Source of the DNA: a virus
Length of the DNA: 32,806 nt
IMG/VR virus record: IMGVR_UViG_3300037230_000123
Span: 1-32,806 of that record
Strand: one strand, 5' to 3'
Shown: in pieces, positions 2,458 through 19,489 of the stretch
Layout: each line of letters starts with the position of its first letter
Numbering within the stretch: position 1 is the stretch's first letter
Made by a program: the position numbers and the translations under genes
The notes under the pieces: generated by a model
The model's input: the letters and a program-made list of their open reading frames with translations, nothing else
The model's database searches: none
Told to the model about the DNA's origin: nothing

Positions 2458-5400
2458 TCAGCCCACAAAAGAAGCCGCGGCGATCATGGGCAGCGGGATT
2501 GGCCAACTGAATAGACAGAAATGGTCGAAGGCCCAAAAGCAGATCAGCGGGATCGACTGGTTGAGGGTGCTCACGAATTCCATTGTCCACGGACAGCCAC
2601 CGTTGAACCAGGGCACCAGGTACGCTGTCGCGGTCACGGGCCAACTGCAGGGGGCGGTGAGCGGGAAAGTGATCGCCGCCTGCGCATTGGTGAAGTTTCG
2701 GTAGGTTGAACCCCAGGATAACCCCTCCATTTTCAGGCGGTCGAGGCCCGAGCCTGCCTGCGCCAGATACTGCGACGGGAAATTGACGGCGCGGTTCAGG
2801 CGCCCGCCCTGTGGGTAGGGGACATCCGGCGTGTAGTAGCACGTCGCGAAGTTCACATCGTACGGCCAGAGCAGCTCGAACTTCGCGCCGGAGTATGCCG
2901 CGAGCACGGTGGTCCGGATGGTATCAATGTGAGCCTTGATCAGGCTGGCTAGGAAGTTCGCGTCCGCCGATCCGTTGATGGTCGGGTCGTCATCCTGGGT
3001 GTAGAACGCGGCCAGGGACCTGCCGAGCGTGGTTTGCGCGGCTTGCGCTGTGTAGGCGTCATAGTAGGCCATCCCGCCGCCGCTGCATGTGCCGGTGCCG
3101 GCCACGTAGTTGCCGTTCCCGCTCGAACCGTTGAGGGTGAAGTGGGTCGCGTCCGTGACGGTAATGGCCTGGTCTCCGTTCGCCGCGGTGTTGCCTTGGA
3201 CGCCGGCGAGGATCGCGCGCTGGCCGGTGGAAAAGCCGTGCGGGCTCACCGTGCCGATCGAAATCGGCGACGCCCAACTGGCGTATCCCACCGCCAGGTT
3301 CTGGACCACGCTGAAGAACCACCAAAGGAACTCACCGAATTGGAGCCACGGTGTCAAACCGGCTGTGCTCATGATCCCAGCCACCTGCCCATAGCAGGCC
3401 GCCAGGTACGGCGTCACGGTGGATGGATTGAACGTGCATTGCGTGGTCTGGAGATCGATGAAGGTCGCGTCTCCGACGCTGGGCGTGTAGCCGCCCGAGA
3501 TCAGAGTGGTGAGCTGATAGTGGTTCGCGTCTGTCACGGTGATCGCCCAGACGCCGGATTGCGTTGCGCTGGAGACGTGAACGGTGTTCCCGGTGATGTA
3601 GCCGTGGCCGGTTTGCTGGATCGTGAATGGGCTGGACCCGCTGACCGCCTCGACGAAGCCGGCGCCCCAACTTCCGAAGCCGGTATCGGTGAGGAGCAGG
3701 TTGCCATTCGCGAATCGCTGCGCCCACGCGCCAGCGGCGGTGTTCGCGTCCGGCGGCGCGAGCAGTTCCTGGGAGAACGCGACCGTTATCGTCTGGCCAG
3801 CCGCCTGGACCAGCCCGCAGAAGTCGGTTAAGTAATCGACGAATGCCTGGTTGAGCGGCTGCGATTGAGATGCGTCCACCTGCCATACGCCCTCGTTACC
3901 CGCCTTGATGTCACCGCTAACTGTGATCGATCCGGTTGAGGGGTTCGCGCCGTTCGCGCCCGTCCCTGCGGCGTAACTTGTGAACAGGGTGAAGCCAGCA
4001 ACGGGGCTGAGCGTCGTGATCGTGAACTGGCCGGTCCCAGTCTTCGCCGCGGAGATCCCGACGAACAGCGTGTTGATCGCGTTGACGAACCGCTGCGCGA
4101 GCGTGTCTATGGTATCGGTCGGGTAGACCGCCGCGCCGAACGCCGTGCCGAGGCCGTCTCCGTAGCTGTTCCCGCCCACCTGCAGAAACATCGCGTCGCC
4201 GTCGCCATAGAGCGACCCGAGATTGAAGCCACTCGACCCTGCGGAAATCGTGACGACGGCCTGATGAAAACTTCCACCCGAGCGCACGCGTTTCAACGCG
4301 AAGAAGACGCCTGAGTAGAAGTCGATGTCGCCGGCGAAGCCAGCCTTGCTCAGAATCCAGAAGGCGCGCGCCGGTGCGAGGGCGTAGGTCTGCGCGGTGT
4401 CGAAGTCGCAGGCGCAGTTGACGTTCGGGTAGGTCGTCGCGGGTGACTGCACGTCCGATAGGACAGCAGCTTGCAGATAATCGAAGATGCAACTGGTGCC
4501 GGTGGACAGCGAGTTGTGAGTGCTGGATACCGCGAGGACCACCACGTGGGTGCCGGGGGCGACACTCGATGCGATGAGGCGGCGCGCGGAAATTGGCGAG
4601 GTGGTGTCGGCGTAGGTGTCGATCGTCGGTTGCGCCACGCCGTCCAGGGTGGCAGTCAATTGGCCGCTTGCTGACGAGAGGGACGTGCCGAGATACAGAT
4701 TGTGCGTGTACTGGCACGAATACGTGATGGTCACGTGGTCGGTCGGGTTCGACGATTGCTGCGCGAAGCCCCGGAAATAGAAGCCCACCTGCTCGCTCCA
4801 GCCAGTGCCGGTGAAGCTCGCCCAGAAGTCGCGGCTGCCGACCGTCACGCTTCCTGGTCCCGCGATCTTCAGCGGCAGCACACTGCTGGGATCGGACAGG
4901 GTCCAGTTGGTGAAAACCGCGCTCCAGGTGCTCGGCTGGTAGGCGACCAACGCGGGATTGACGGACCCAGAGTCGTAATTTAGCGCGGGCGCGAAGGTGA
5001 GCCACGCTTGGCGCAGCGAGTCGTTTCCGCTTGCTGTGAAATCGATGTGGAAATGCACGGACGACGGGTCTGTGCCGCCGGTGAGTTTGGATGCACCCGC
5101 CGGGGTCAAGTACGCGGTCGAGGTCTTGTGCATCTCCAGCAACTCGATGGCATTGCCGTCGCGGCCGCCTCCTGGCGCGAGGTAGTTGACGCCGGTCTGC
5201 GTGCCAGCAGAGGTCGTCACGGTGGCTGATGTGGGCGATGTGACAGACGCGAGCGCGTACTGGACACCATTAATAAGGATCGGATCGCCGGCCTGCGACC
5301 CTAGGAAATTCTGGCCCGAGGTGAACGACACTGACGTGCCCGAGGTGTTGACGGTCCCGTACCGCGCAGCATAGACGGTGAAGCTCGCGCCGCTCACGGT

Positions 5401-6279
5401 TGCCATCAGCGCGATCGTGGGGTTGAGGAAGGCCCAATTGGTCCCGTTGATCTGTCCGGCCAATTGCGCGGCGATGAACGGGCACGCTCCTTGGGACTCA
5501 ATGAGCGTACCGGGGCCATTGCCATCGGAGGCCGAGCAGCTAATGCTCGCGCCGCTGTTGGTCCGCGCCGTGAGGATCACGTTGTTGGCGCTCACGGAAG
5601 CGGTAGCGTTCGGATCGTTGGCAGCGTTGATTGCAGCGGCCAGCGCGATGGCGATGTCGCCGGAACCATCGGTTGAGAGCTGGACGTGCGAGTACGTGTT
5701 GGACCCGATCGTGATGGTGTGGTTGTAGCCGGTGCCGAGGTAGTTGAAGAACCCGAACGTCACCGTCGCAGGCCCCGGCGACAGCGCAGTCGAGACCAGG
5801 TAATCGTAAACGACGTTACTCAAATAGACGAGATCCACGCGGTCGTACAGCGCGGGCGTGCCGTTCACCGTAAAGGTCTGAGAAGCCGCCGCCATGCCGG
5901 TGGCCGATGTCGCCATCGGTAGGAGCGAGATGGTGCCGGGCGTTTCCGACTTCGTGATGTAGCTGAGCGCGCCCCAGGGGACCGATTGAAACTTGCGGCT
6001 GACGGGATTCTGCGCGTTGGTGATCGCCAGGTCGAAGTCGAGCGTGACGCCGGCGAGCGAGAAATCGGGAAGGTACTTGGTGGTGAAGAGATGGCCGAAC
6101 TGATCGTCGGCATCGAACAGCACCAGGACCGCGAAATCGGCTTGATCGCTGAAGACGCCGCTGACCGTGAACCCGGAGGCCGTGGCGTTGTTCAGAGACG
6201 CGGCGCATCCGCGGCGGTCGAAGCCGCGCAGGTACATCGTGCGATGCGGCTCTAGCTTGTGGATTGCTTCCGTGGGCAC
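2458..6279 (-). CDS. Tail-tip protein with TIM-barrel glycosidase-like domain
   Basis: A 1,273-residue protein that starts six bases after the hub gene ends. The N-terminal third is beta-rich (MYLRGF, then an LFDADD strand) and carries a structural module at about 170-260 that recurs at 670-790; both have aromatic beta strands, then an AINA/FVNAINT helix and ITT/ILTA strands. The C-terminal half reads as an alpha/beta barrel from about 625, with motifs PARAFWILSKAGF, ITVAFSQELL, LLLTDTGFGSWG, PWLQFGEFLWW, AFYTQDDDP, FELLWPYDVN and RLKMEGLSWG. This acid/aromatic strand-end pattern is typical of glycoside-hydrolase-like barrels, including that of GTA/phage tail hubs. Two FCCH-like beta modules (about 875-940 and 1004-1065) are inserted in it. 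A likely role is receptor binding or cell-surface polysaccharide degradation. Catalytic residues cannot be assigned with certainty. Confidence 0.7.
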   Translation of the reverse strand: MPTEAIHKLEPHRTMYLRGFDRRGCAASLNNATASGFTVSGVFSDQADFAVLVLFDADDQFGHLFTTKYLPDFSLAGVTLDFDLAITNAQNPVSRKFQSVPWGALSYITKSETPGTISLLPMATSATGMAAASQTFTVNGTPALYDRVDLVYLSNVVYDYLVSTALSPGPATVTFGFFNYLGTGYNHTITIGSNTYSHVQLSTDGSGDIAIALAAAINAANDPNATASVSANNVILTARTNSGASISCSASDGNGPGTLIESQGACPFIAAQLAGQINGTNWAFLNPTIALMATVSGASFTVYAARYGTVNTSGTSVSFTSGQNFLGSQAGDPILINGVQYALASVTSPTSATVTTSAGTQTGVNYLAPGGGRDGNAIELLEMHKTSTAYLTPAGASKLTGGTDPSSVHFHIDFTASGNDSLRQAWLTFAPALNYDSGSVNPALVAYQPSTWSAVFTNWTLSDPSSVLPLKIAGPGSVTVGSRDFWASFTGTGWSEQVGFYFRGFAQQSSNPTDHVTITYSCQYTHNLYLGTSLSSASGQLTATLDGVAQPTIDTYADTTSPISARRLIASSVAPGTHVVVLAVSSTHNSLSTGTSCIFDYLQAAVLSDVQSPATTYPNVNCACDFDTAQTYALAPARAFWILSKAGFAGDIDFYSGVFFALKRVRSGGSFHQAVVTISAGSSGFNLGSLYGDGDAMFLQVGGNSYGDGLGTAFGAAVYPTDTIDTLAQRFVNAINTLFVGISAAKTGTGQFTITTLSPVAGFTLFTSYAAGTGANGANPSTGSITVSGDIKAGNEGVWQVDASQSQPLNQAFVDYLTDFCGLVQAAGQTITVAFSQELLAPPDANTAAGAWAQRFANGNLLLTDTGFGSWGAGFVEAVSGSSPFTIQQTGHGYITGNTVHVSSATQSGVWAITVTDANHYQLTTLISGGYTPSVGDATFIDLQTTQCTFNPSTVTPYLAACYGQVAGIMSTAGLTPWLQFGEFLWWFFSVVQNLAVGYASWASPISIGTVSPHGFSTGQRAILAGVQGNTAANGDQAITVTDATHFTLNGSSGNGNYVAGTGTCSGGGMAYYDAYTAQAAQTTLGRSLAAFYTQDDDPTINGSADANFLASLIKAHIDTIRTTVLAAYSGAKFELLWPYDVNFATCYYTPDVPYPQGGRLNRAVNFPSQYLAQAGSGLDRLKMEGLSWGSTYRNFTNAQAAITFPLTAPCSWPVTATAYLVPWFNGGCPWTMEFVSTLNQSIPLICFWAFDHFCLFSWPIPLPMIAAASFVG

Positions 6280-6285
6280 AGGTTT

Positions 6286-9200
6286 TCAAGACAGCGCGAC
6301 GGTGAGGTCCGATCCGGGGAACGTCGTGCCGACGGCAGTGAGGTTAATGATGACCGGCGTTTCCGGGTCGATCGAAGGCGTGCCTGTGGCGGACCCGACT
6401 GTTAAGCCTGCCGCGATCGTGACAGTAAATAGCAGAGTGGTTCCCGCGTAGACCTGGATGACCAGGTCCGCTCCCACGGGTGCCTGCTTCACCATGCAGG
6501 TCACACCGTTCTGCAACGCGACGGTGGAGGTGTAGAACGCCGCCGGGCCGAGGTTGCTGCCAATCGCCAGCGTCCCAGGAATCGAGATCTTCATCTCGCC
6601 TGAGGGCGCGCCGACCTCGCCGTAGATCCAGTCCTCGCGGAAAGGCTGGTCGCCGTCCGGCGATTCGTTGCCGTTCACATCCACGGTGAAGCCGGCAATG
6701 AGCATCGGCTGCTCGATGAAGTTCGCGGTCGGCACCGAGAGGCTGACGGGCGTTAGCGGGTTCGCATTGTCGATGCTGGTCGAGTCCGCCTGGAACGCCC
6801 AGGCGGGTGCCTCGACGATCCACACCGACGTGTCGTCCATGAGCAGCGGCGGCTGGAAGGTCAACTGGGTCGAGGTGTTGGCCGTTATCGTACTTGGAGG
6901 CTGGCCGCGACCAGTACCCGCGATCACGCGGATCAGGTTGCCGATTTCCGCGTTTACCGCAAGACCGCCGTAGCTGTTTGCTACGTTCTGGTAGCCCGCG
7001 TCGGTAACCTGGGTGACGGAGGCGGGGGTGCCCGACAAGCTCGACTTGTTGCGAATGACCACCGCATCGCCCACGTTGACGATCCCTGTGGGATCACGAT
7101 CCAGCGTCATCGTCCCGGTGGTCGAAACAAACGCGGTGATGTTGAAGCTCGCGAACGGCGTGCTGCCATTGGGGCGGCCGATCACAGAAAGAATGCGGCC
7201 GACGGGGCTGAACGGCGTGGAGGAAGTATCGACCAGCTCGGAACAAAACAACGTGTTCGTCGACACGGTGGTGACAGCAACGCCTGCGACACCGGAGTGC
7301 AGCAGGAGCTTCGCTTTGATGCGGACCTTGGCGACGTATGGCGAAGGCAGCGCCCATGTCGAGCGCACGACCGGGCCGCCGAAGGTGATCGAGCTCGGCG
7401 TGTACGTATTGCCTGTTCCGGCGGTCAATGTGCCGGTCGCTTGCGCGCAGATCAGGTCGGGCTGCGTTCCGACGAACAACACGTAGGAGACGAGCCCCGC
7501 GACCGGGGGCCATATGATGCTCTGCAAGTCGAACGTGTCCGTCCCTGATGCCGATGTACCGATGATGATGATGTTCGATGGAACTGACGGAAGGCCGTTC
7601 GAATCGATCGCGCAGATGGCAACCCACAGCGTGGTGCTCGCGGGCAACGATCCGCCGGTTGTGCCCTGCGTAATCGATCCGATTCCCGGCGCGCCCGCAC
7701 CCGTCGCGCTGAACTCGTTCACCGGAAGTTTGCCGGTTACGATCAGGCTCGCGAGCGCGCTGCCATCGGCGAGCGTCGTGTATTCCTGATCGGAATCGAA
7801 GGTCCACTCGCTGGGATACAGTGCATCGCTCGAAGACGCCTGCACCTGGTATGGCGCCCACACTGGGCCGAGCGGGATCGGATAGAACAGCGCGGGAAGC
7901 GGCGCTGGCACGACGTCCATCGGCTTTGGTCCGACATCCAGGTCGTACATGGAAGCCGTGACGGTCTGCGCCTCGATTTGCACCGACCAGTCTTTCTTCA
8001 GGCTCCAGCGCTGGATGCGGAAGCACATCGTGAGGACCCGGAAGGCCAAGCCAGTTCCGCTGGGAGGCGCTGGAGACGTCGTGATCGTTGAGCCGTCACT
8101 GGCGACTGCCGTGATCGTCACCTGGGAACCCCCGATCAGGATTTCTTTATTGATCAGCTCCGTGTCTCCAGTCGCGGTCCCGGCGTAGGTCCACGGATCG
8201 CCGCTCACCCAGGTGGCAGTGCTGCCGGAGACGTTGCAAGTGCCGTGGACGCCAGGAATGTCCGGGTGCGTCATCGAGACCACTTGCCCTACTTCGTTGC
8301 CGAGGCCGAGCAACGTGGTCTGCCATGCCGCTGTTCGCGCGTCGCGCCATTCCGCGGGCGTCACACCGCCGAGTTCTTCGCGCGTCCGAGTAGCAGCGAT
8401 CCGAAGCGCCTGGCTCAGAGAAGAGCATCCCACCGAATGCATCTGAGTGGTCAGCGGAGATCCCGCGCGCCCGTAGTAGGCCGCGTGGCTCTTGTCGCAA
8501 TATTCCGCTGTATTCGCCTGATACTGATAGGCAACATCGGCGAACGAAATCACCAGATGCTCGAAACCAGCTTGAATCGGCGTCAACCGCAGTGTTTGAT
8601 AAAGAGAGTTGGCGAGTGTGTAGGCATCCACCGCGCTGGCGTTGATCCGGCAGCCGAACTTCAACTGCCCGAACTCCCAGGTGTAGAAGCCCAGGCAGCA
8701 GTTCAGGACCTCGGTGAGCCAGTCGCGGAACGGCTTCTGGGCACTGATGATTCCTTGAAACTGAAACTGCGTCTCTGTGCCGGTTCCGAGAATGGCCGCG
8801 ACCTGGGCTGCGGCGATCTCGGCCGCTCCGCTCCCATCGCCCACAATCAGCGACGGCAGCGCGAACGCGGCGAGCTGGTCGGATGACGCCGGGCCTGCTC
8901 CGCCTGCCGGATCTGAGCCGGTGGACGGATCGCCATACAATCCCATCGCGCGCAGCAGCATGTTCACCGCAATCCAAAATGGATTGATGAGTCCCTTGAC
9001 CGCCGTCCGGTTGCCGCTCTGATCCCAAGTCCACCCCCACATCCCGTAGTCGATCGGGACCGTCATCTGGTGCTGGTCAGGAGTGCTCGGCTGGATCGTG
9101 GAAGATTTGACGATGCGAATCTCACACGCGGCAGTTCCGGCGGCGTAGACGTTCGGCTCCCAAACTTGCGGACTGCCGGAGCCAAGCGAGAAATAATCGA

Positions 9201-10692
9201 AGGTGGGATTCACGGGGTCGTCGCCGAGCACCTCGCGAGGCGCGCCGATGGGTGAATCCTTGACTACGTTTAGGTTGCCATTCACCGCGAAACCTTGCGG
9301 CGTGTAGCCATCCACCATGGGAGCCACCACGTAGCGGTAACCATCCGCGTTGGTGACGACGTACATTCCGGTGAATCCGCCAATCGGGCCGGCGCAGAGA
9401 ATGCCAAGCGAATCCGCGAAGGTCGATTCGTCGCGATACGCCACCATCAGTGCGTTCGCCATGAACGCGAAGATGGGATTACCGCCGCTGTTGCACCAGA
9501 TCTCCGGCAGCGCCAGCCCCCAGATCGTGTCCGAAACGATAGAGGTTGCGGTAACGGTGTTGCGGCCGAAGCCGAGGAAGCCGGTGGAGTCGTCCTTGAT
9601 GACGACGCCCTGCGGATCAGCCTGGTGCCCACCGAAATAGGGGGACATGCCGTGAACCTGGCAACCGTTCGCTGATTCGAGGTAATAATCACAGCTCCCG
9701 GGATCGCCGCCGGCGGCCGTCACCGCTATGGCGCTCGCGCCCTTTGTTGCCCACGGGCAGTTCACGCCGTCGTTGTACGTCTTCCAGCACTGGCGCGACA
9801 CCTGCCGCTCCGGGTACTGGTTCATGATCTGGAAGAAACCGTCCGAGCAGGTCACCGGGAAGATCGGCGTGCCGTCGCTGGTGAAGTTCTGGATAACACC
9901 CTTCCAAAGCTGGAGCAGAATCCCGGAGTTGGCATGGAAGAGACAGAGGTCAATCTCGGCGTACTTCAGGTCAGTATCGTTGGCGAGCTGCGTCATCACG
10001 CGGTCGCCATTGCCGAACGTGAAGCGGACGTTGTCCGAGGTGCCTTTGATGTCCTGCGAGATCAGCACGTCGGAGCCAGGCTCGCCGATGCCGATGAGGC
10101 GTGGCAGGTAAAGCTGCCCGCCCACCGTGACGCGCCGGTCGGATAGATAGATGTCCGCAACCGCGGATTCACGCACGCGGATGTGGACGAGCGGGATGAT
10201 CTGCTGGACTTCAGAAAGCAGCGCCGTGGACAGCGCGGTCGAGGGAAATCGCAGGCAGGTTGAGCTGACGGTGTAGGTGGGGGCTGCTGTCGGATCGACG
10301 ACCTCGATGAAATTCAGTCCGATCTGCGCCGCATTGCGCAGGTACTCGAAGGAAATCGGCATCTGCTCGAAAGTGACCAGCACACTGCTGGTCGATCCAT
10401 CGGGGTTCGGGACGGTGTAGGTGAACGCCTGCCACGGCCCCTGCATCGACTCCCAGAACGCCCTGAGCTGGTTCACTTCGACCCAGTTCAGGTTCGGGTG
10501 CTTGAACTGAAATTTACGCGGGCCGATGCCGACGTAGTATCGCTGCTCCTGCTTGGCATCGAGCGTGCCGAAGCGATGCACGATCACCGGACGCTCGACG
10601 GAGAAGCCGAAGGGGTACTGCGTGGTGAGCGGGAATGTCTGGCCGGAGTTGATCACCGTGGGCACGGTGATGCGGCCGATGGCGTCGGACAT
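6286..10692 (-). CDS. Tail hub / tip attachment fusion protein (DUF2460-BR0599-hub)
   Basis: A 1,468-residue protein. Residues 1-130 look like the DUF2460/minor-tail type of distal-tail domain (YPFGFSVERP, FQFKHPNL, LRAFWESMQGPWQAFTY, ending in FIEV). Residues 150-345 resemble the BR0599/DUF2163 tail domain with its cysteine cluster (C302, C312, C334, C344, in motifs QCWKTY and NCPW). From about 640 to 920 a gpJ/GTA-like hub section follows (FRDWLTEVLNCCLGFYTWEFGQLKFG, split by short loops, then EEL, the TRTREEL helix and IQRWSLKKDWSVQIEA). The rest is FN3-like and beta-sandwich material to the end. In gene-transfer agents and many siphophages these are separate genes. The hub connects the tube to the tip and holds the receptor-binding protein. 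No good ribosome-binding site precedes the ATG at 10692. Confidence 0.75.
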   Translation of the reverse strand: MSDAIGRITVPTVINSGQTFPLTTQYPFGFSVERPVIVHRFGTLDAKQEQRYYVGIGPRKFQFKHPNLNWVEVNQLRAFWESMQGPWQAFTYTVPNPDGSTSSVLVTFEQMPISFEYLRNAAQIGLNFIEVVDPTAAPTYTVSSTCLRFPSTALSTALLSEVQQIIPLVHIRVRESAVADIYLSDRRVTVGGQLYLPRLIGIGEPGSDVLISQDIKGTSDNVRFTFGNGDRVMTQLANDTDLKYAEIDLCLFHANSGILLQLWKGVIQNFTSDGTPIFPVTCSDGFFQIMNQYPERQVSRQCWKTYNDGVNCPWATKGASAIAVTAAGGDPGSCDYYLESANGCQVHGMSPYFGGHQADPQGVVIKDDSTGFLGFGRNTVTATSIVSDTIWGLALPEIWCNSGGNPIFAFMANALMVAYRDESTFADSLGILCAGPIGGFTGMYVVTNADGYRYVVAPMVDGYTPQGFAVNGNLNVVKDSPIGAPREVLGDDPVNPTFDYFSLGSGSPQVWEPNVYAAGTAACEIRIVKSSTIQPSTPDQHQMTVPIDYGMWGWTWDQSGNRTAVKGLINPFWIAVNMLLRAMGLYGDPSTGSDPAGGAGPASSDQLAAFALPSLIVGDGSGAAEIAAAQVAAILGTGTETQFQFQGIISAQKPFRDWLTEVLNCCLGFYTWEFGQLKFGCRINASAVDAYTLANSLYQTLRLTPIQAGFEHLVISFADVAYQYQANTAEYCDKSHAAYYGRAGSPLTTQMHSVGCSSLSQALRIAATRTREELGGVTPAEWRDARTAAWQTTLLGLGNEVGQVVSMTHPDIPGVHGTCNVSGSTATWVSGDPWTYAGTATGDTELINKEILIGGSQVTITAVASDGSTITTSPAPPSGTGLAFRVLTMCFRIQRWSLKKDWSVQIEAQTVTASMYDLDVGPKPMDVVPAPLPALFYPIPLGPVWAPYQVQASSSDALYPSEWTFDSDQEYTTLADGSALASLIVTGKLPVNEFSATGAGAPGIGSITQGTTGGSLPASTTLWVAICAIDSNGLPSVPSNIIIIGTSASGTDTFDLQSIIWPPVAGLVSYVLFVGTQPDLICAQATGTLTAGTGNTYTPSSITFGGPVVRSTWALPSPYVAKVRIKAKLLLHSGVAGVAVTTVSTNTLFCSELVDTSSTPFSPVGRILSVIGRPNGSTPFASFNITAFVSTTGTMTLDRDPTGIVNVGDAVVIRNKSSLSGTPASVTQVTDAGYQNVANSYGGLAVNAEIGNLIRVIAGTGRGQPPSTITANTSTQLTFQPPLLMDDTSVWIVEAPAWAFQADSTSIDNANPLTPVSLSVPTANFIEQPMLIAGFTVDVNGNESPDGDQPFREDWIYGEVGAPSGEMKISIPGTLAIGSNLGPAAFYTSTVALQNGVTCMVKQAPVGADLVIQVYAGTTLLFTVTIAAGLTVGSATGTPSIDPETPVIINLTAVGTTFPGSDLTVALS

Positions 10693-10740
10693 GGGTTTGG
10701 GTGGGCTTAATTAAGGAGGGTTGGACGAGCGGGCCGCTTC

Positions 10741-10753
10741 GAACAGCCTGTTC
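10741..10753. promoter_or_regulatory. Perfect inverted repeat GAACAG-C-CTGTTC
   Basis: A 13-base dyad with 6-base arms and a single central base sits in the 197-bp space (10693-10889) between the YwgA-like gene and the hub gene. It is about 50 bases upstream of the hub start on the minus strand. It contains GAAC-N5-GTTC, reminiscent of LexA-type boxes (GAAC-N4-GTTC in Gram-positives) but with the wrong spacing. It could be an operator for the hub/tip transcription unit. The rest of this gap shows nothing I can name. Confidence 0.3.
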
Positions 10754-10889
10754 TAATGGAGGGTCGAATCTTGAATGGCGCGAGCCGGCGGGTGGGTGAG
10801 CCTGAGTCTCCCGACTACTTCGGAAGGCGTTCCGTTATCAGCGCGAATTTGGAGTGCGCTTTCATGCAGTTAGAAGTTCGCCTTACGGG

Positions 10890-11471
10890 TTATGCATGAG
10901 TCATCGCCGGAGCGGAAGACAGCAGCAGTTTTTTCTCGTAAAGGCTATTTGCCTTTTCCGCGATGTAGGCCTCCTTGAAATGCGGCTTGACGTCCTTCAC
11001 TCGCCCGGCAAGCTCGGAAATCGTCAGACGCTCACCTCTCCGCTCAGCTTCCCGGTCGACATATACAACCGTGCTCTCCAGTTCGAGATCTGCACTCCCG
11101 TGCGATCCGAACTCGGCAATGACCCAATCGATGTCGTTGGTATGCGATTCGAGCAGGCCGATTCCAGCCTCAATCGTAGCTTCCGCCCTGTCGGCTTTAC
11201 TTATCCGATAGCCATACCCGCCCGAATACCGAACCACGCTCGCCTTCACGGCTTCGAGATTCTCCGCAGTTCCCAGATCCGACAACACGTCGGAATCGAA
11301 TGGACCATAGGAATACAGAGTAAAGCGATACCCAAGGGGCACGTGTTTGACGGTTTGGAGGAGGTAACAAAACTTCATCAGTGCCGTACGCCCCAAATAT
11401 CCGGCTGGCGCAAGGGTCGCCAGCTTAGCGATCACAGCCAATCGCGCGTCTTGCAGCTTATTCCATTCCAT
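10890..11471 (-). CDS. YwgA/Panacea-like protein, partner of HD phosphohydrolase
   Basis: A 193-residue protein that overlaps the end of the HD gene by 14 bases and is preceded by an AAGGA about eight bases from its ATG, so its translation is probably coupled. The N-terminal helix pair and motif GYLGRTALMKFCYLLQ followed by FTLYSYGPFDSDV match the pattern of the YwgA family and the related SocA/Panacea fold (R/K-x-x-LxKxxYLLQ, then YGPxS). In Bacillus, ywgA lies beside ywfO, an HD-domain gene, which supports the assignment through context. The biochemical role of YwgA-type proteins is not known; Panacea domains serve as antitoxins. Here the protein may restrain or direct the HD enzyme. A virion role is unlikely. 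Confidence 0.65.
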   Translation of the reverse strand: MEWNKLQDARLAVIAKLATLAPAGYLGRTALMKFCYLLQTVKHVPLGYRFTLYSYGPFDSDVLSDLGTAENLEAVKASVVRYSGGYGYRISKADRAEATIEAGIGLLESHTNDIDWVIAEFGSHGSADLELESTVVYVDREAERRGERLTISELAGRVKDVKPHFKEAYIAEKANSLYEKKLLLSSAPAMTHA

Positions 11472-12723
11472 CGAGCGTTTCCTTCACTTTCTTCATTGCT
11501 TCGGATCTGTTTTCAGGCGAACAGTAAAGAAGCACCTGATCGTTATTTCCGAGATTACGAACCACGCTGGAGCGCACGCTCAGGGGAACCGGTCCGTGCG
11601 TCCGTTCATCCTCAACCCGTATATCCGTGTCCCCTGTTTTGTACCAGCTCTTTCCTGCGGGCATTTCGGCTGCCAGTAATCCTCCCAGTGACTCACGGAC
11701 CTTCGCAAGCCGGGCCTTGTCGGCAGGAGTCTGGACCTCGTTAGTCTGGAATACCAACCGGTAATGATCACGTCCCGACAGACGCTTGCCATGTTCTCCG
11801 CCAGCGCCCGATGCGAGCAGTCCCAGAACACGCCAGTCGTCCCACGCCAAAAACTCGTCGAGACTTTCCGGTTTTGGGAAGTGGCCGTCTGGAAGGAGCT
11901 CCTTCATCGCTTCACGTATGTGAATATCGTACGCCACCCGGGTCTTATGAAAGTAGACCTGCGTGAACATGAAATATCTGGCGATGACCAGTGCTTCGGC
12001 GGCGTGCCAGCCTCCCTCCTGGATTCCAATCCGGGGTGGCCCGTCCTTGATTCGAATCGCCGTCATCGTCGATATCAGCCGTTGCAGGTCGAAACGACCA
12101 TAATGAACGCCCGCGTGGTGCGAGTCGCGCAATAGATAATCCATTCGATCCGCATCCATTTGGCCCGTGATCAGATCGCGCCAGAAAATTCCTTGCCTCG
12201 CCCCGGCGCTGCCCTCCAGAAGTGCCGCCACATCGTCGGCGGAAAGGTTATAGCCCTGATTCAGCTTATGCTCTTCGATGGCAGAACGCAGTGGCCCGCG
12301 AACAATAGCTGCAGAGTACTGTTCGTGCACGTACTTTCCGCCGCCGTTCTCCTGGTCTGGAAACAGCTCCTCGGAGGCGTGCGAGAACGGTGAGTGGCCC
12401 ACGTCGTGGAGCAGCGCCGCGAGCCGGACGAGTTGTCGATTCCTCTTAACGCCCTGCTCGTCATACCCGAGTTCGTCGTGCAGCACTTGCCATGAATTGC
12501 GAATAATCGCGTCATAGATCAACCCAGCCGTATGCATGACACCCAAGGAGTGTTCGAACCGATTGTGCATCGCACCGGGGTATACCTGGTCCGTCCACGC
12601 GAGCTGACGGATTCGGCGCAGCCGCTGGTATGCCGGCTGCTCAATGATCTGTCGTTCCCAGTCGTTAAGCGCTACAAATCCGTGCACCGGACATCGAATC
12701 TCAAATGTGTCATGCGGGTTCAT
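11458..12723 (-). CDS. HD-domain phosphohydrolase (YwfO/SAMHD1-like, COG1078)
   Basis: A 421-residue protein, normal for this family of dNTPase-like HD enzymes. The HD motif is intact: NRFEHS (H58), LLHDVGHSPFSH (H106, D107), and MDADRMDYLLRDSHHAG (D190/D192) as the last metal ligand. The opening residues (VHGFVALNDWE, PAYQRLRRIRQL) are typical of the family. Such enzymes hydrolyse nucleoside triphosphates, and dNTP-depleting members protect cells against phages. The gene starts at an ATG at 12723 without a clear ribosome-binding site and forms an overlapping pair with the YwgA-like gene. The pair splits the tail module between the minor tail protein and the hub, so it is cargo and not a virion part. 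Substrate cannot be told from sequence. Confidence 0.88.
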   Translation of the reverse strand: MNPHDTFEIRCPVHGFVALNDWERQIIEQPAYQRLRRIRQLAWTDQVYPGAMHNRFEHSLGVMHTAGLIYDAIIRNSWQVLHDELGYDEQGVKRNRQLVRLAALLHDVGHSPFSHASEELFPDQENGGGKYVHEQYSAAIVRGPLRSAIEEHKLNQGYNLSADDVAALLEGSAGARQGIFWRDLITGQMDADRMDYLLRDSHHAGVHYGRFDLQRLISTMTAIRIKDGPPRIGIQEGGWHAAEALVIARYFMFTQVYFHKTRVAYDIHIREAMKELLPDGHFPKPESLDEFLAWDDWRVLGLLASGAGGEHGKRLSGRDHYRLVFQTNEVQTPADKARLAKVRESLGGLLAAEMPAGKSWYKTGDTDIRVEDERTHGPVPLSVRSSVVRNLGNNDQVLLYCSPENRSEAMKKVKETLDGME

Positions 12724-12801
12724 TTTGCATGCTGCGAGAGGGTAAATCGGACAGCGGGGATCGGGCTCTCCTTCTGCGCCTGAAACATTTGTGCTTCGGA
12801 T

Positions 12802-12814
12802 TGTTAGATTAACA
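12802..12814. promoter_or_regulatory. AT-rich dyad TGTTA-GAT-TAACA upstream of the HD cassette
   Basis: A perfect inverted repeat with 5-base arms and a 3-base loop, flanked by further imperfect symmetry (GATT / AATC) from 12799 to 12819. It lies about 80 bases upstream of the HD gene start on the minus strand, in the most AT-rich part of the 195-bp gap (12724-12918). It could mark the promoter/operator of the HD/YwgA-like pair. No standard promoter hexamers were identified. Confidence 0.3.
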
Positions 12815-12918
12815 TAATCGAGGCCGTCGTATTCCCGGATCAGAAGCGGGAGGACAACGCGTCAGCCTCCCGGATGAACGAATAAAGGGCCGAACAGGCA
12901 AATGGACTTGTGCCCTGC

Positions 12919-13335
12919 CTAATCCACCTCCATCAACTCCAGCCCCTGCACGTTCGTCCGCGCGACATCCGTGGCCTGTGCCCAGTTGCCGCGGAACACG
13001 ACGGTAACCCGGCCCTGCGTATTGTTGCCAGTCGGATCATAATTGCTGCCGATCTGCTGGCCCGACGCTACGTCGAACGGATTGTAAAAGGCGAATGGCG
13101 TCAGGCCGGCGTCCTGTGAGACCCAGAAGCTGTATAGCGCGGCAAGCAGCGTCGCGTTCAATCGTTTGCTGAGCCGAAACGTCCGCCGCGAGGTCTGCGC
13201 AAGTTGTGACCGCTGGATCGTCCCGTCGTGATACTGGTTCTGGAGCTGCACGTATTCGCGCAATTCCGTGAACGCGGTGCACAGCGACGCCGGCATCACC
13301 CCGCTCGGTACGGCGTATTGAATATTTCCGGGCAT
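12919..13335 (-). CDS. Minor tail / distal tail protein (DUF2460 or gpM-like)
   Basis: A 138-residue protein with the plan of small tail-tip proteins: a basic beta strand (RRTFRLSKRL), a helix (LLAALYSFWVSQDAGLTPF), a FYNPFD turn, a RVTVVFRGNW strand and a final hydrophobic strand ending LELMEVD. The same plan occurs in residues 1-130 of the hub fusion, so the two are probably paralogous domains. Proteins of this type form a ring between tail tube and hub. It begins 12 bp after the fibre gene ends. After it, the minus-strand tail operon is interrupted by a 195-bp gap and the HD/YwgA-like pair. Confidence 0.65.
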   Translation of the reverse strand: MPGNIQYAVPSGVMPASLCTAFTELREYVQLQNQYHDGTIQRSQLAQTSRRTFRLSKRLNATLLAALYSFWVSQDAGLTPFAFYNPFDVASGQQIGSNYDPTGNNTQGRVTVVFRGNWAQATDVARTNVQGLELMEVD

Positions 13336-13347
13336 CTGATGAGTGCG

Positions 13348-15504
13348 CTAGTGGACCGCGAAGCTCTGTTCAAGCTTGGCCCACACAATCCACAAGGTGC
13401 CGGTGTTCGTATCAGGCCCGTTGCTGCCGCGCCGATACATCCGTGTGATCACAGCGCCCGATAGTGGATTCGGACAGGATGCGTTGATGCCGAGACCGTA
13501 CGGCCCGACAAATTCGTTGATCGAGGAACTGCTGATCGAGTAGCCGCCCCCGCCCGACGTCACGGGAGCCGTGGTGGAACCTCCCGGCATGGAAGGAAAG
13601 GACGGCCCGGTCGATATGCTGAAAGGCGCGCAGGCCATGAGCACGATGAAGTCCACGTTACCGCCGGAGGCATCCGAGTAACCAGCCCACGACAGAGTCA
13701 CCGAATTGTACGTCACCGGAGTCTCAAAGAGCATCGAGGCATAGATGTCGCCGTTTCCGTGGGCCAGCGGAACCGCCGCCATCGGCGTGCCCCCAACCGA
13801 GATGCACTGCATCGCCGCACTCGACCCCATGAACTGCGGACTCGGAATGGGAGTCGCGCCCACCGCCGAGCAGTAGCCGACCGGGAAGATCTGAGTCGCG
13901 TTCCCGTTCACCACGCTGGGCATGGCCGTGACGCAGTTCGCGGCGTTATTGATGCTTCCGCAGTTGGTCCCGACGTTCGTATAAGAGTTGGAAAGATCGT
14001 TGATGGGCGGCCCTGGGACCGCGTCGAACAAGATGCCGTATTGAAGGTACGTGTTGCTGTTGACGTTGGGCGAAGCCATGATGGAGTTCCCGCTGTAGCC
14101 CACCATCAGGAGACCGCCGGATGTGCTGCCGTGGGTGACATAGATCGCGGCGGCCTTCTGCGGATTGCTTCCATCGATGCCGATGCCATCGATCCGGTTC
14201 CCTGTGATCGTGAGGCCGTCGTAGCGCAACGCCAGATAAAGGGCGGAATCCGTGGTGCCCGTGATTGTGTTGTCCACGATGAACAGGCCGTCTGTAAAGT
14301 CATAAGCAGAGTTGCTCACCACCACCGCCCGGCCCTTGACGTTCGCGAACCTGTTCCCTTCAAGGATCAGCCCGATAATGCCCGTCGCCGAGATCACCGA
14401 GGTTTCGCTGCTCTGGTTCGTATAGTTTCCGTCGGCGAACACATCCCTCATCGCGAAATCGGTGGTCGAGTTCAGGGTCAACATCGCGGTGTTCAATCCG
14501 TTCTTCACGGTGAGCTTGCTTCGAGCCTTCAGGCCCATGAGGGTCCACCCCGTCGTGCTGGAGATCGAGAGTCCGTTTTGCAGCGTATAGGTATTCGGCC
14601 CCATCATGAACGTCACATTCGGCGTGGACCCGGCTGCACCGAAAGCGCGTGAGAAACAGGTATCGTCATAGGTTCCCGGTACACTGCAATACTGATCGAT
14701 CCAGGTGATCACCGTACCTTTCGGGAGCCCGCCGAGATTTGACAGCGCAGTTGCTGGGCTGCCCACGTCGGACAGATTGTTCGCCGCGGCGAGCTTCGCA
14801 TTGAGCTGGGTTTGCGCATCGCTCGTCAGGTTGGCGACGTATCCGAAAGCCGTATTCCCGACGCCGCCACCCCCGATGTTGGGGGCCGGGATTCCTATCG
14901 GCAGTTGGCCGACCGAAGCCGCGCCCGCGAGCTGATTGAAGTTGTAATCGTTCGCGGAAGGCGAGATTGCGCCAGTCCGTCCGTCAAAGGACGTAACGCC
15001 GCCGGCGGGCGGATTGCACCAGACCGCCACACCTGCGGTGTCACAGATCATCTGCCCATTCGTGGCGCCTTGCGTGGAGAGTTGCGAGAGCGCGACCGTC
15101 GTCGTCGGGCCGGGCGTGTAAAGCGTCGTGACCTGCACGATGGTGCAGGTCCCTGATGGGCACCGGGACGACGGGAGTGTCGGCACCGACCAAATGCTGG
15201 TCGAAGTCTGGCCGTTCGAGACAGTGTTTACGGTGTAGACAATGGCCGGGCTCGCGTGATCCGTTGGTGCGAGCTGAATGTTGACCACTCCGCTCGTGAT
15301 CGAAAAGGCGCGCGCGCCACGCGCGATCGGCACGCCCCCGACCGAGAAGGCCGCATTGGTCACGATGATATTTCCATCCATCAGCGACCCGTCGACGTTG
15401 TAGAGCGTGTCACTGATCGTGGTCAGTGCCGGTTGCGCTCGGCAAAGCGGAGCGCAGAGTAGCCAGAGCACAGCGCATATAAGAAAGACAAAGAGTCTCC
15501 GCAT
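13348..15504 (-). CDS. Secreted-type tail fibre/spike with right-handed beta-helix
   Basis: A 718-residue product if translated from the ATG at 15504, which has AGGA six bases upstream; a TTG at 15525 is less likely. Residues 1-23 form a clear Sec signal peptide (MRR, a hydrophobic core of Leu/Phe/Val, then CRA before Q24). A beta domain follows (ISDTLYNVDGSL and a VVNIQLAP strand). Next comes a linker with phage-fibre signatures (VTSFDGRTGAI, QLNAKLAAANNLSDVG, ALSNLGG). Then at about 320-510 there are repeated strands of the pectate-lyase/beta-helix kind (LEGNRFANV, FIVDNTITGT, LTITGNRIDGI). The C-terminal domain is a beta sandwich. The gene follows the tape measure by 37 bp. A fibre with an export signal is unusual; it may instead be a secreted host-surface protein carried as cargo. 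Confidence 0.75.
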   Translation of the reverse strand: MRRLFVFLICAVLWLLCAPLCRAQPALTTISDTLYNVDGSLMDGNIIVTNAAFSVGGVPIARGARAFSITSGVVNIQLAPTDHASPAIVYTVNTVSNGQTSTSIWSVPTLPSSRCPSGTCTIVQVTTLYTPGPTTTVALSQLSTQGATNGQMICDTAGVAVWCNPPAGGVTSFDGRTGAISPSANDYNFNQLAGAASVGQLPIGIPAPNIGGGGVGNTAFGYVANLTSDAQTQLNAKLAAANNLSDVGSPATALSNLGGLPKGTVITWIDQYCSVPGTYDDTCFSRAFGAAGSTPNVTFMMGPNTYTLQNGLSISSTTGWTLMGLKARSKLTVKNGLNTAMLTLNSTTDFAMRDVFADGNYTNQSSETSVISATGIIGLILEGNRFANVKGRAVVVSNSAYDFTDGLFIVDNTITGTTDSALYLALRYDGLTITGNRIDGIGIDGSNPQKAAAIYVTHGSTSGGLLMVGYSGNSIMASPNVNSNTYLQYGILFDAVPGPPINDLSNSYTNVGTNCGSINNAANCVTAMPSVVNGNATQIFPVGYCSAVGATPIPSPQFMGSSAAMQCISVGGTPMAAVPLAHGNGDIYASMLFETPVTYNSVTLSWAGYSDASGGNVDFIVLMACAPFSISTGPSFPSMPGGSTTAPVTSGGGGYSISSSSINEFVGPYGLGINASCPNPLSGAVITRMYRRGSNGPDTNTGTLWIVWAKLEQSFAVH

Positions 15505-15541
15505 ATCGATTCCTGTTGTGGGCAATGGAGGGATGCCAGTG

Positions 15542-18500
15542 TCAGGACACCGTCAAGCCGGGCAACTGCATGTTGGCGGATTGCTGCGTGCGGCCGTAGC
15601 TCGAATACTGCGCCGCCATCGCCTGGTCGGTCACAAACTGGGGCGTTACGAACTGGCCGGTCATGAAGTTCGCGGCGTCGCTGCCACTCACGTTCATCGA
15701 AAGGTACGTCGCGCCGGTGCCGCCCGAGGTGTTCGGGCCTCCGGGAGTCGGGTAGGTTCCCGATGCGATCCCGCCGAGCGTCGGGATGTTCGAGGCGTAG
15801 GTGTGAGCCTGGCCATCCTGGTAGCTGGCTTGTTGATAGACCTTGCCGCCCTGTTCGACCAAGCTGCCCGCATACGGCGTCGTGGCCGACAGCGGCATCT
15901 TCTGACCGGTGGCCTCCGAATACAGCATCACGAGTTGACGGACGCTGGGCGACCGCACGGCCACCGCCACGTCGCCGCCGAACTGCGACTGTGCGATCTG
16001 CACTACCTGTTTGATCGTGCCGCTGTTCTGCGGGATGTTCACGCCGTAGATGCTCTGGATGTCGTCGTGCGCTTTCTTCTGTGGCGATTCGAAGAACACG
16101 GAGCTGATGACTCCGGCGAGGACACCGGCACCAGCGCCGATCGCCGCACCCATCGGACCACCGAGCGAACCAATCTGCGAGCCAAGGGAAAAGCCCGCGA
16201 GAGCGCCGCCCAGACCGGCCTCGACCGTTCCGCCCACACCCTGGCGCTGGACTCCGTTAATGCCGAGCATCAGGCCGGCCATGCCCGCCGCCGGGCTGGA
16301 TGCCACGCCGGCAACCGTGCCAAGCGGCCCACCGATTCCGGCGGCGGTGGTCCCGACGCCCGGCCCCATGATGATGCCGCCGGAGTTGTAGACGGAATTC
16401 TTTAGATTTCCGAGCATGCCGGTGAGGCCACCGGGCTTGAAGATGTTCCCCGCAATCCCGCCCATCCCTTTGCTGGAACTTGGAAACAGCAAACTCAGCG
16501 GATTGAAGCCAGCGCTCCCCGAAGTGGAATGCAGCGGAAGGTCATGAATATCGGGCGCGCTCGAGGCGGAAACCGAGCTTCCACTAACGCCGGTTGCTAT
16601 CGATGGTCCACCCAGCGAGAGGCCGCCCCCGATGATCGTTGGTAAACTCAGGCTCGCGCTCGCACTCGCCGGAGCCGAAATCGACGGGATCGATATCGAG
16701 GGAACACCAGCCGCGCCGCCCGACATGGAGGGTGCCGCCACTCCCATGCTGGCGGCAAGAATCGCCGTCAAGCTGGCCATCACCGCGCTGTTCTGCATGG
16801 TTGCCGACGTATTCATGTCAGTCGAGACGCGCACCGGATCCTGGGAGGTGCCGCGCAACATCCCGCTTAGCCCGCCGCGCCCGTCCGACCCGTAGATGAT
16901 CGGATGCACCACGTTCGCCACCGCGCCTCCCAACGTTTCCGTTACCGGCTTAAGCACCGCGGCGTGAATCGTGCTGAACAGATCCTTACCGAAATTCTTA
17001 GGCTTGGTGAACAGGACATCGAACAGCCGCTCGGCCTGCTTCTGCAGCCCGTCGATCTGCGACTGTATTTCCTGCTGATGTTTCTGCTGGATCTGCGCCT
17101 GCTTTTCTTCGAACTGGTCCTGCGCCTGAGCGAGTTCCGTGAACAGATCCTTCTGCGCCTGCGCCGCCAGGACGGATCGCTTCGCCGCGTTTTCCTCTTT
17201 CGATATTCGCTCGGCTTCGATGCCGGCCAACTGGACGGCTAGATCGAGCTTGGCCTGGTAGGCTTCCTGCGCTGCCTCCACCTCTTTTCGTTCAGCCAGC
17301 TCCCGCTTTTCGCCTTCGGACATCGCCATGGGCGTTTCCTGACCGGCAGTCAGTTCCGCCATGCGACCGGATCGCGCCGCGCGCCGCTGCGCAGCTTCAC
17401 GCTGCGCTTGGACTCCGATGTCCTCGATCTTTTCCTGCGCCGCGAAGTATTCCTCCCACTCCTTCATCTGCTCCTTCGATGGCAGCATCATCGCCAGCGC
17501 ATTTTTCCGCCGCTCGGCATCTTCCTTCTCTGCGTACTTTTCAAATTCCTCCCATGACTTTTTGTATATGACCGACGCTTGCTCTTCCGCAGACTTGCGA
17601 ATCGCGGCGATCTCCGTTTCGGAAGCCTTCACCTGCGCGGCCTGCTTCAGAAGTTGGTCGCGCTGATAGTAGATCTTGCCGATCGCGTCCAGTTCGGATT
17701 CGTCGCCCTTCTTCTCAAACTCGGCCGCCTGGCGCTGGAACTCCTTGAGCTGCTCCGCGTTCTTGGCAACGGCATCCAATCCCGCCTTGCGGCGCGCTTC
17801 ATTCGCTTCAGCCGCCTTTAGCTGCTTATCCAAATCGACCGCCTCAGCCTTCGTCAGAGGCTTGTCCGGTTCCAGCAGTTGTTTTTGCAACCGCTCGACA
17901 TCCTTCTTGGCGTCGGCGTATGCCTTCTCCATTCCGTCGTGCGTGCCGAAGAACCGGGCGCGAATCCGATCCGTCTCCTCCTTGCCCGCATGCAGATCGC
18001 TCCGCTTGGTGGCGGCCTCGGCATCCTCCAGCATCTTTTGCAACTGCTGGATCTGGTCCTGGATGTCGCTCGCCTTCTTCGAACGATCTTCCTCATCGCG
18101 CGTGGGAGCGATCGCCTGCAGAAGGCCGAAACCGCCGGTCAGTCGTTCTTGTTCGGCCCGCAGATCCTCGATGCGCTTCAAGGTGGCATCGCGGTTCTTC
18201 ATGATGTCCGGCGCCTGACGTTCCATGTCAGCCGCTTCCTTGCGATGCGCGCTAACGGACATGCTCGCGCCGTAACCGCCTAACGCCTTGATCTGCGCGG
18301 CATCCTGAAGCGCCTGGATCTCTTCGCGGTGCTCACGTTCCTCATCGCGAGCAGTTGAGATGTTGTCGAGGAACCAGTCGACGCCCTTCCCGACCCACGT
18401 CACGCTGATGACCAGGCCCTCTTTGAACTTGCGGACCAGCGAGTCCCACTTGGTTTCGAGCACCGTGACTTCCCGCTGGTATTCGGAAAAGCGATGGATG

Positions 18501-19489
18501 TCCTCCTCGGTCGGCCCGAAGCCTTGCTCGTGGGCGACACGCAGGTTCTCGTTGAGTTCCGTCATGAACGGAATCGCCTCGACTCCAACCTTTTTAAATA
18601 GGTCCATCGCTGCAGCGTCGCGCTCTAGCCCCTCCGGGAGCTTGTTCAAGCCCTCTGAGATCTCTGTCAGAATCTCGGAGGTGGGCTTCATCTCGCCCGT
18701 GGCGGTGTGGAAATCGATACCCATCGCGCGCATCGTTGCCCGCGCCTTCTCGCCTTCGTTGGAGTTGTCGTTCGCAGCCTGGGACAAACCCCGCATGAGG
18801 CGTTCGACAATTGAGATGTCCTGGCCGACCGCACGCGCCGCGAAACCGAACTGCCCGACCTCCTTTGCGGTCAAGCCGGTGCGCAGCTCTGCATCCTTCA
18901 CGCGGGTGCCGTACTCGCCAAGACTCTTCGCGGCCTCGAATGCCGACACGGCAATGGTGCCGAGGACGGCCGCGCCGGTCGCGACCGCGATACCAAACGG
19001 ACCAAGAGCCGTAAGCACGGACGAGACCGCGCCCTTCGCGCCCTGGAGCGGATTCTCCACGAACTGGCTGACGCGCTCCCCGAAACCTTTGATGGCTTCC
19101 GATTGCTTCTGGAGGGCCTCTTCAGCTTCCTTGGCTGCCTTGAGCGCAAGAGATTCGCGCGCGGCCTTCTCCTCCATCGCGATCATCTTTTCGTAAGACT
19201 TGGTGATCGCATCGATGGCCTGCGGCTCGCGATTGTATCTCTGCAACAGTTGATCCCGCTGCGTGATCAGCCGGTCGACACCGCTCTTGCCATAGGTCTC
19301 GGCCTGTTTGTCGAGGGACGCAATCAGCCGTTGGACGCTGGTTCGGGTCTGATCCGAAATCCGGATCACCTTGCCGTGCGACGATTCAGCTTTCTTCTCG
19401 AAGCTGTCGAGCCCGGCGTTGGCCTTGTCCACCACCGGGGTGACTTGGTCCTCGGCTTCGAGGATTACGCGCTCTGCTTGGTCTGCCAT
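15542..19489 (-). CDS. Tail tape measure protein
   Basis: The 1,315-residue product is the longest tail-internal protein and lies after the chaperones. It has long coiled-coil stretches rich in Glu, Lys, Gln and Ala (about 75-150, 385-850), hydrophobic segments at about 155-190 (a Gly/Ala/Val-rich stretch after GPFG) and near the C-terminus (Gly/Ala-rich helices before FFESPQKK), and a Ser/Gly-rich region between. Tape measures set tail length during tube polymerisation and leave the tail at DNA ejection. Using the usual 1.5 angstrom per residue, the tail would be close to 197 nm. The ATG at 19489 follows the previous stop by a single base (TGAAATG), with AAGG upstream, indicating coupled translation. 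No lytic transglycosylase or peptidase motif was seen inside it. Confidence 0.92.
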   Translation of the reverse strand: MADQAERVILEAEDQVTPVVDKANAGLDSFEKKAESSHGKVIRISDQTRTSVQRLIASLDKQAETYGKSGVDRLITQRDQLLQRYNREPQAIDAITKSYEKMIAMEEKAARESLALKAAKEAEEALQKQSEAIKGFGERVSQFVENPLQGAKGAVSSVLTALGPFGIAVATGAAVLGTIAVSAFEAAKSLGEYGTRVKDAELRTGLTAKEVGQFGFAARAVGQDISIVERLMRGLSQAANDNSNEGEKARATMRAMGIDFHTATGEMKPTSEILTEISEGLNKLPEGLERDAAAMDLFKKVGVEAIPFMTELNENLRVAHEQGFGPTEEDIHRFSEYQREVTVLETKWDSLVRKFKEGLVISVTWVGKGVDWFLDNISTARDEEREHREEIQALQDAAQIKALGGYGASMSVSAHRKEAADMERQAPDIMKNRDATLKRIEDLRAEQERLTGGFGLLQAIAPTRDEEDRSKKASDIQDQIQQLQKMLEDAEAATKRSDLHAGKEETDRIRARFFGTHDGMEKAYADAKKDVERLQKQLLEPDKPLTKAEAVDLDKQLKAAEANEARRKAGLDAVAKNAEQLKEFQRQAAEFEKKGDESELDAIGKIYYQRDQLLKQAAQVKASETEIAAIRKSAEEQASVIYKKSWEEFEKYAEKEDAERRKNALAMMLPSKEQMKEWEEYFAAQEKIEDIGVQAQREAAQRRAARSGRMAELTAGQETPMAMSEGEKRELAERKEVEAAQEAYQAKLDLAVQLAGIEAERISKEENAAKRSVLAAQAQKDLFTELAQAQDQFEEKQAQIQQKHQQEIQSQIDGLQKQAERLFDVLFTKPKNFGKDLFSTIHAAVLKPVTETLGGAVANVVHPIIYGSDGRGGLSGMLRGTSQDPVRVSTDMNTSATMQNSAVMASLTAILAASMGVAAPSMSGGAAGVPSISIPSISAPASASASLSLPTIIGGGLSLGGPSIATGVSGSSVSASSAPDIHDLPLHSTSGSAGFNPLSLLFPSSSKGMGGIAGNIFKPGGLTGMLGNLKNSVYNSGGIIMGPGVGTTAAGIGGPLGTVAGVASSPAAGMAGLMLGINGVQRQGVGGTVEAGLGGALAGFSLGSQIGSLGGPMGAAIGAGAGVLAGVISSVFFESPQKKAHDDIQSIYGVNIPQNSGTIKQVVQIAQSQFGGDVAVAVRSPSVRQLVMLYSEATGQKMPLSATTPYAGSLVEQGGKVYQQASYQDGQAHTYASNIPTLGGIASGTYPTPGGPNTSGGTGATYLSMNVSGSDAANFMTGQFVTPQFVTDQAMAAQYSSYGRTQQSANMQLPGLTVS

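Follow-up and report, generated by a model that had tools for sequence, protein, structure and literature searches.

Why a phage should carry an HD phosphohydrolase and a small YwgA-like protein in the midst of its tail genes is the question raised by this locus. We analysed a 32.8-kb fragment (32,806 nucleotides, hereafter the window), a virus contig from a public collection. Both open reading frames were confirmed: the HD gene (11458–12723, minus strand, 421 aa), predicted to encode an effector of the SAMHD1/EF1143 type of dNTP triphosphohydrolase, and the partner gene (10890–11471, minus strand, 193 aa), predicted to encode a YwgA-like antitoxin or regulator with the fold of a stand-alone DarG toxin-neutralising domain. 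The first-pass annotation had reported an overlap of 14 bases, and this proved exact: in the window letters, the shared bases (11458–11471, ATGGAATGGAATAA, minus strand) hold the partner start and the HD stop, with the partner start codon lying inside the final codons of the HD gene. Translational coupling of the two genes through this overlap is likely, judging from the layout. The same annotation had the cassette splitting the tail genes, as it indeed does, with T138, a 138-aa tail gene (12919–13335), on its left flank, T1468, a 1468-aa tail protein gene with a weak Phage-tail_3 match (6286–10692), on its right flank, and the tape measure further upstream. The order on the minus strand is the tape-measure gene (15542–19489, matching a PHROG tape-measure family), a 725-aa gene with an N-terminal signal-like stretch upstream of T138 (13348–15525), T138, the cassette, T1468 and T1273, a 1273-aa gene of the tail operon (2458–6279). 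No gene was assigned in the 5′ junction between T138 and the HD gene (195 bp, 12724–12918) or in the 3′ junction between the partner and T1468 (197 bp, 10693–10889). The cassette region contained no sigma-70-like promoter site, although acidobacterial promoters may differ, and its terminator matches were not above those of shuffled sequences.

A scan of genome contigs with the HD protein returned 80 HD loci. The partner was next downstream in nearly all HD relatives of at least 44% identity whose contig continued, and the two genes often overlapped by 4 or 14 bases, the 14-base overlap recurring in L011, L013, L036 and L047. Distances among HD proteins and among partners were correlated over 56 pairs (Mantel r = 0.888; permutation maximum 0.268). 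The hosts of the pair belonged to Acidobacteriota, Planctomycetota, Myxococcota, Pseudomonadota, Nitrospirota, Nitrospinota, Armatimonadota and Thermodesulfobacteriota, with more distant pairs in Chloroflexota, Bacillota and one methanogen; this spread across phyla agrees with the earlier proposal that the pairing is old. The adjacency of ywfO and ywgA described there for Bacillus was seen in Priestia megaterium (L007) and in Bacillus/Paenibacillus (L055, L061 and L062), with partners 22–27% identical to that of the window across these four loci. In L007, the HD gene is followed by a 24-bp gap and a YwgA-like protein in a ywhD-type synteny (HD 28%, partner 22% identical to the window proteins). 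Of 299 genomes sampled from the class to which an Acidobacteriales genome belongs, 16 had an HD relative at ≤1e-30, which indicates a patchy distribution; ten of these 16 were fetched, and the partner was found in all eight non-truncated loci. Apart from L007, the HD matches inspected in annotated Klebsiella and Listeria phages and in many plasmids had no partner, and they were set aside as generic HD proteins. These results, together with the viral copies described below, show that the HD protein and its partner form a real, mobile unit. A misassembly is possible in principle in a virus contig from a public collection, but an artefact or a chance neighbourhood has next to no likelihood and is already contradicted by the co-divergence in 56 pairs, by further viral pairs and by varied sister cargo at the exact same junction.

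The HD protein matched the Pfam families HD (4e-11) and HD_assoc_2 (8e-11). A profile of 30 HD relatives, compared with the PDB, matched Aquifex 2HEK, E. faecalis EF1143 (2O6I among the matches) and SAMHD1. The best folds for its AlphaFold2 model (pLDDT 90.7) were EF1143 with dGTP/dTTP (4LRL/3IRH; E 4e-21, TM 0.73–0.75), followed by SAMHD1. EF1143 is a dNTPase activated by dGTP (PMC8177086). The metal and catalytic set (H58, H106, D107, H110, H115, H133, E134 and D192) was invariant in 56 of 56 pairs, viral ones included, so the intact HD active site described at first reading is borne out; Q40, R55, D195 and Y196 were likewise identical in all 56, and the H106-D107 motif of the metal site lies at 12403–12408 (minus strand). 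The protein combines the H...HD...D site and the catalytic His and Glu of the SAMHD1/EF1143 dNTP triphosphohydrolases with their fold. Because metal and catalytic residues are identical across the paired homologues and the fold is of EF1143/SAMHD1 type, the HD protein is likely to be an active dNTPase. Against the anti-phage dGTPase model NF041026 it scored 22.3 bits, below the cut-off of 400. Two other ideas were set aside: 9MR6, at first taken for a possible CloA, proved to be a SAMHD1 from a fungus, and DatZ-type removal of dATP, as used for modified genomes, does not fit a pair that lies outside any replication cluster and also occurs on chromosomes.

The partner matched no family in the Pfam search and thus not SocA_Panacea, which was reached weakly by 7 of its 54 relatives. 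Its best PADLOC match was the C-terminal half of DarG (2e-8, profile positions 159–328 of 329), and this match was common to all 54. Compared with the PDB, the partner-family profile gave one convincing match, 7YK3_B, which is DarG in the DarTG complex (5.8e-7), and the AlphaFold2 model (pLDDT 96.6) had 7YK3_B and 7YK3_D as its only significant folds. Since the family profile and the predicted fold both match DarG, we assign the partner, on this computed evidence, as a stand-alone toxin-neutralising domain of the DarG kind without a macrodomain and as a distant Panacea relative. The first-pass description of a Panacea-related partner therefore held for the antitoxin-type fold and the distant kinship, but its nearest family is the DarG neutralising domain. 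A further PADLOC candidate family, PDC-M19A, was matched by 19 of the 54 partners; we found no paper on it, and the HD protein matches no PDC-M19 model. The DarG-like fold does not by itself prove that its target is the HD protein. That such a domain could serve an HD enzyme has a precedent in the promiscuity of Panacea antitoxins, which neutralise toxins of many unrelated kinds by binding them (PMC8832971).

The cassette was then compared with known systems. Toxin-first order is that of DarTG operons, as in the window cassette. The partner shares the toxin-neutralising fold of DarG (7YK3), whereas the pair has neither the DarT ADP-ribosyltransferase nor the DarG macrodomain, and its effector is an HD dNTPase. 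In Clover, which consists of the dNTPase CloA and the nucleotidyltransferase CloB, an HD dNTPase effector and a restraining partner follow the same two-gene logic (PMC12265719), the likeness of the effectors being one of HD dNTPase superfamily. Clover demonstrates that defence can work through a dNTPase restrained by a partner dedicated to it, and CloA is toxic when on its own (PMC12265719). Since the window partner is of DarG type, in place of a Pol-beta nucleotidyltransferase, a p3diT-type signal is not to be expected; family searches found no nucleotidyltransferase match in the cassette proteins. Panacea (PanAT) likewise offers a small promiscuous antitoxin-type domain with diverse effectors, also in prophages (PMC8832971), but the window partner misses Pfam SocA_Panacea, and the terms "HD domain" and "hydrolase" are absent from the main text of that paper. 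Stand-alone anti-phage dGTPases (NF041026, PADLOC dGTPase) belong to the same HD dNTPase superfamily, whereas the window HD protein is paired, of the SAMHD1/EF1143 branch and below the cut-off. The Firmicutes YwfO–YwgA pair is homologous and in the same order, but has a conserved chromosomal-type synteny, in contrast to the mobile context of the window pair. No PADLOC or NCBIfam model was above its cut-off for either protein as a family of its own. By the features tested, the pair belongs to neither DarTG, Clover, Panacea nor the curated anti-phage dGTPase family. The first-pass annotation held that this pair is not a described defence system, and we found no paper describing it in a search that left subscription journals and most preprints outside. 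From sequence, the cassette is probably an undescribed anti-phage defence module.

Two tail-gene scans of a viral contig collection yielded 100 loci of one phage family, some contigs appearing twice. In 69 loci (a few near-copy contigs included), the gap between T138 and T1468 was <60 bp in 16, 60–400 bp in 4 and 0.6–4.7 kb in 49. The T1468 start codon follows directly after the T138 stop in L122, and the two overlap in L145 and others, which marks an empty site. We refer to this gap as slot A, to the position between T1468 and T1273 as slot B, and to that after T1273 as slot C. Slots A and B together held 106 mechanically called ORFs of at least 100 aa, which fell into 96 clusters, nearly all inserts being unrelated to one another, and the slot A ORFs used both strands (48 versus 37). 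In a raw tally with no random-locus comparison, the slot cargo included Lamassu LmuB (2e-88), PD-Lambda-2_B, a TIR protein with repeats, two GmrSD, two PD-T4-6-type kinases, one FRG protein and others, while many of the cargo genes checked had no match to anything. The site is thus a hypervariable cargo slot common to a phage family in Acidobacteriota. T138 was conserved in the sister phages, and T1468 was up to 96% identical in them. The cassette itself is absent at the same junction in sisters and has a foreign composition, as expected of a moron: its GC3 was 0.61–0.64 versus 0.76–0.82 in the tail genes, which fits import. The defence hotspots of P2, P4 and the lambda morons follow the same pattern, in which related temperate phages differ in their cargo at one fixed junction, but the window slot lies inside the tail operon of Acidobacteriota prophages and is accompanied by at least two further slots.

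Several side observations were made in the sister contigs. Across L117–L186, about 90 unrelated cargo proteins were noted at the T138/T1468 junction (window 10693–12918), slots A and B taken together. The 725-aa gene occurs in some sisters only (L117, L121, L141, L147 and L148), and in others T138 directly follows the tape measure and an 851-aa pectate-lyase-like protein occupies slot B; these two genes are perhaps swappable tail-spike genes. In L120 (9422–9916) and L130 (9190–9813), the sequence immediately ahead of T1468 codes for an end similar to the C-terminus of T138 (e.g., IELVEVA), a hint that T138 was partly duplicated while cargo was exchanged. One sister contig (G006, L112/L141; L141 6277–9831 and 14707–19748) has three cassettes: slot A holds LmuB together with a possible LmuA; slot B holds a protein that looks by eye like a HATPase, with weak REase similarity, beside a neighbour that looks by eye like a response regulator; and an HD–YwgA pair follows T1273.

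A tyrosine integrase was found in 19 of the 40 sister contigs searched, among them the contig of L117, which has tail genes 94–96% identical to those of the window. Of 399 genomes from the Acidobacteriales class, 20 had T1468 relatives, in some cases in the middle of megabase contigs, and a 125-kb contig (L252) holds the late operon with yet another slot A gene. Sister integrases and T1468 relatives inside megabase genome contigs identify this family, by its gene content, as temperate phages of Acidobacteriota, the window phage being one of soil Acidobacteriota. A match to a CII-like activator in the window (PHROG, 8.7e-15; 173 aa, 1914–2435, plus strand), encoded in the direction opposite to that of the tail genes, supports this, although no integrase was identified in the 32.8-kb window fragment itself. 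Separately, the L013/G009 genome was seen to carry a chromosomal HD–YwgA pair together with relatives of the T1468 prophage gene on other contigs.

Viral scans with either single protein found no relative of the HD protein or the partner, and a search of annotated phages and plasmids found no partner relative in either. Viral copies were recovered by a scan with the HD alignment, which added pairs on contigs L091, L092, L093/L094, L095 and L112. In the IQ-TREE phylogeny, in which L095 and L007 sit on long branches, the six viral HD proteins require six label changes, at least four of them forced by well-supported branches. Phages have thus captured this kind of unit repeatedly, at least four times. 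In L112, T1273 is 92% identical to that of the window but the HD protein only 38%, and the pair lies after T1273, beside an integrase; a partner relative was present in only 2 of 50 sister contigs. A weapon of lytic growth, in which a late-operon dNTPase removes host or rival nucleotides or, as counter-defence, a nucleotide signal of host defence, would account for an orientation that is the same as that of the late operon, and HD-superfamily hydrolases do take varied nucleotide substrates (PMC8177086). We regard it as very improbable, since a paired antitoxin would be unnecessary, the sister slot cargo lies on both strands, and the same pair occurs on bacterial chromosomes with no relatives of the window phage genes in the fetched flanks.

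The locations of the chromosomal pairs were examined as well. By a raw tally with no random-locus comparison, their 108 immediate neighbours include BrxC, PglX, type I/II/III methylases, a BsuBI/PstI-type endonuclease, MADS proteins, PsyrT and Cas6. Cas6 adjoins the pair in L011, the closest relative of the window pair, and no CRISPR array was found beside it. The L041 pair is flanked by brxC and pglX; the 967-aa protein there had no PDB match and was assigned as PglX by family search. The brxC–pglX position holds the HD–YwgA pair in one genome (L230, G376) and a different gene, AlbA/Schlafen-looking by eye, in the BREX operon of another (L229, G368), and it is an exchangeable accessory position in BREX. 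The pair is therefore associated with known defence genes, through BREX, R-M, MADS and Cas6 neighbours and through the sister-slot cargo, as far as raw tallies can tell. Such pairs were accordingly found beside defence genes and in phages, and not in housekeeping loci only; the latter outcome is the one that the first-pass annotation had named as contrary to its proposal.

Two further explanations bear on these locations. The conserved, apparently housekeeping YwfO–YwgA synteny in Firmicutes, here in Bacillaceae, makes a physiological role in dNTP control possible, in which a dNTPase and its regulator were transduced and are used by the lysogen or in phage replication. The EF1143-like allosteric fold would suit such a role, and a cell-cycle role has been described for Caulobacter Dgt (PMC12186491). 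It seems a poor fit to the window pair and quite unlikely, as few genomes of the class have the pair, phages have taken it up repeatedly, it adjoins defence genes, and most sister phages are without it, so that it is not needed for their replication. Alternatively, a mobile addiction module, with a dNTPase toxin and an antitoxin partner, would mainly benefit the stability of the element rather than protect against phages. The architecture, the DarG-type partner and the mobility are those of a toxin–antitoxin system, but this explanation is also unlikely given the several known defence proteins in the sister slots and the BREX and R-M surroundings of the chromosomal copies, and an integrated prophage would presumably gain little beyond defence value.

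We favour, with moderate confidence, a prophage-carried anti-phage module in which a dNTP-depleting effector is held by a DarG-type antitoxin or regulator, because the intact catalytic set, the folds, the co-divergence, the mobility, the defence-type neighbours and the swappable slot all point in this direction. Weighing against it are the lack of a promoter-like site in the cassette region, the scarcity of partner relatives in the sister contigs and the housekeeping-like synteny of the Firmicutes pair. In this mechanism, the temperate phage would carry a two-gene module of toxin–antitoxin architecture as cargo (a moron). The HD protein would act as a dNTP triphosphohydrolase effector, and the DarG-type partner would bind this enzyme and keep it off or tuned. 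Upon infection by a competing phage, the partner might release the enzyme, or be overridden by the surge of dNTPs that phage replication brings, and the freed HD enzyme would then drain dNTPs so that the invader could not replicate. For the window pair, we infer all four elements, namely dNTPase activity, physical inhibition, the trigger and protection. More tentatively, and with slightly less than even confidence, the pair may represent a new class of defence or toxin–antitoxin system, in which a SAMHD1-type dNTPase would be the toxin and a stand-alone DarG-type domain both the antitoxin and the phage sensor, mobile among at least eight phyla and repeatedly taken up into tail-operon defence slots of temperate Acidobacteriota phages.

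If the proposed role is true, the pair would show that an antiviral dNTPase can be restrained in a second way besides that of Clover, one not based on a nucleotide, and the DarG neutralising fold would serve effectors besides DarT. It would also give a testable role to YwgA, a small Firmicutes protein for which the searched literature reports no role. The slots of Acidobacteriota prophages form a second, broader lead: with several known defence types and many matchless genes side by side, slots A and B are a source of candidate defence systems, and many of their unassigned genes are themselves defence candidates.
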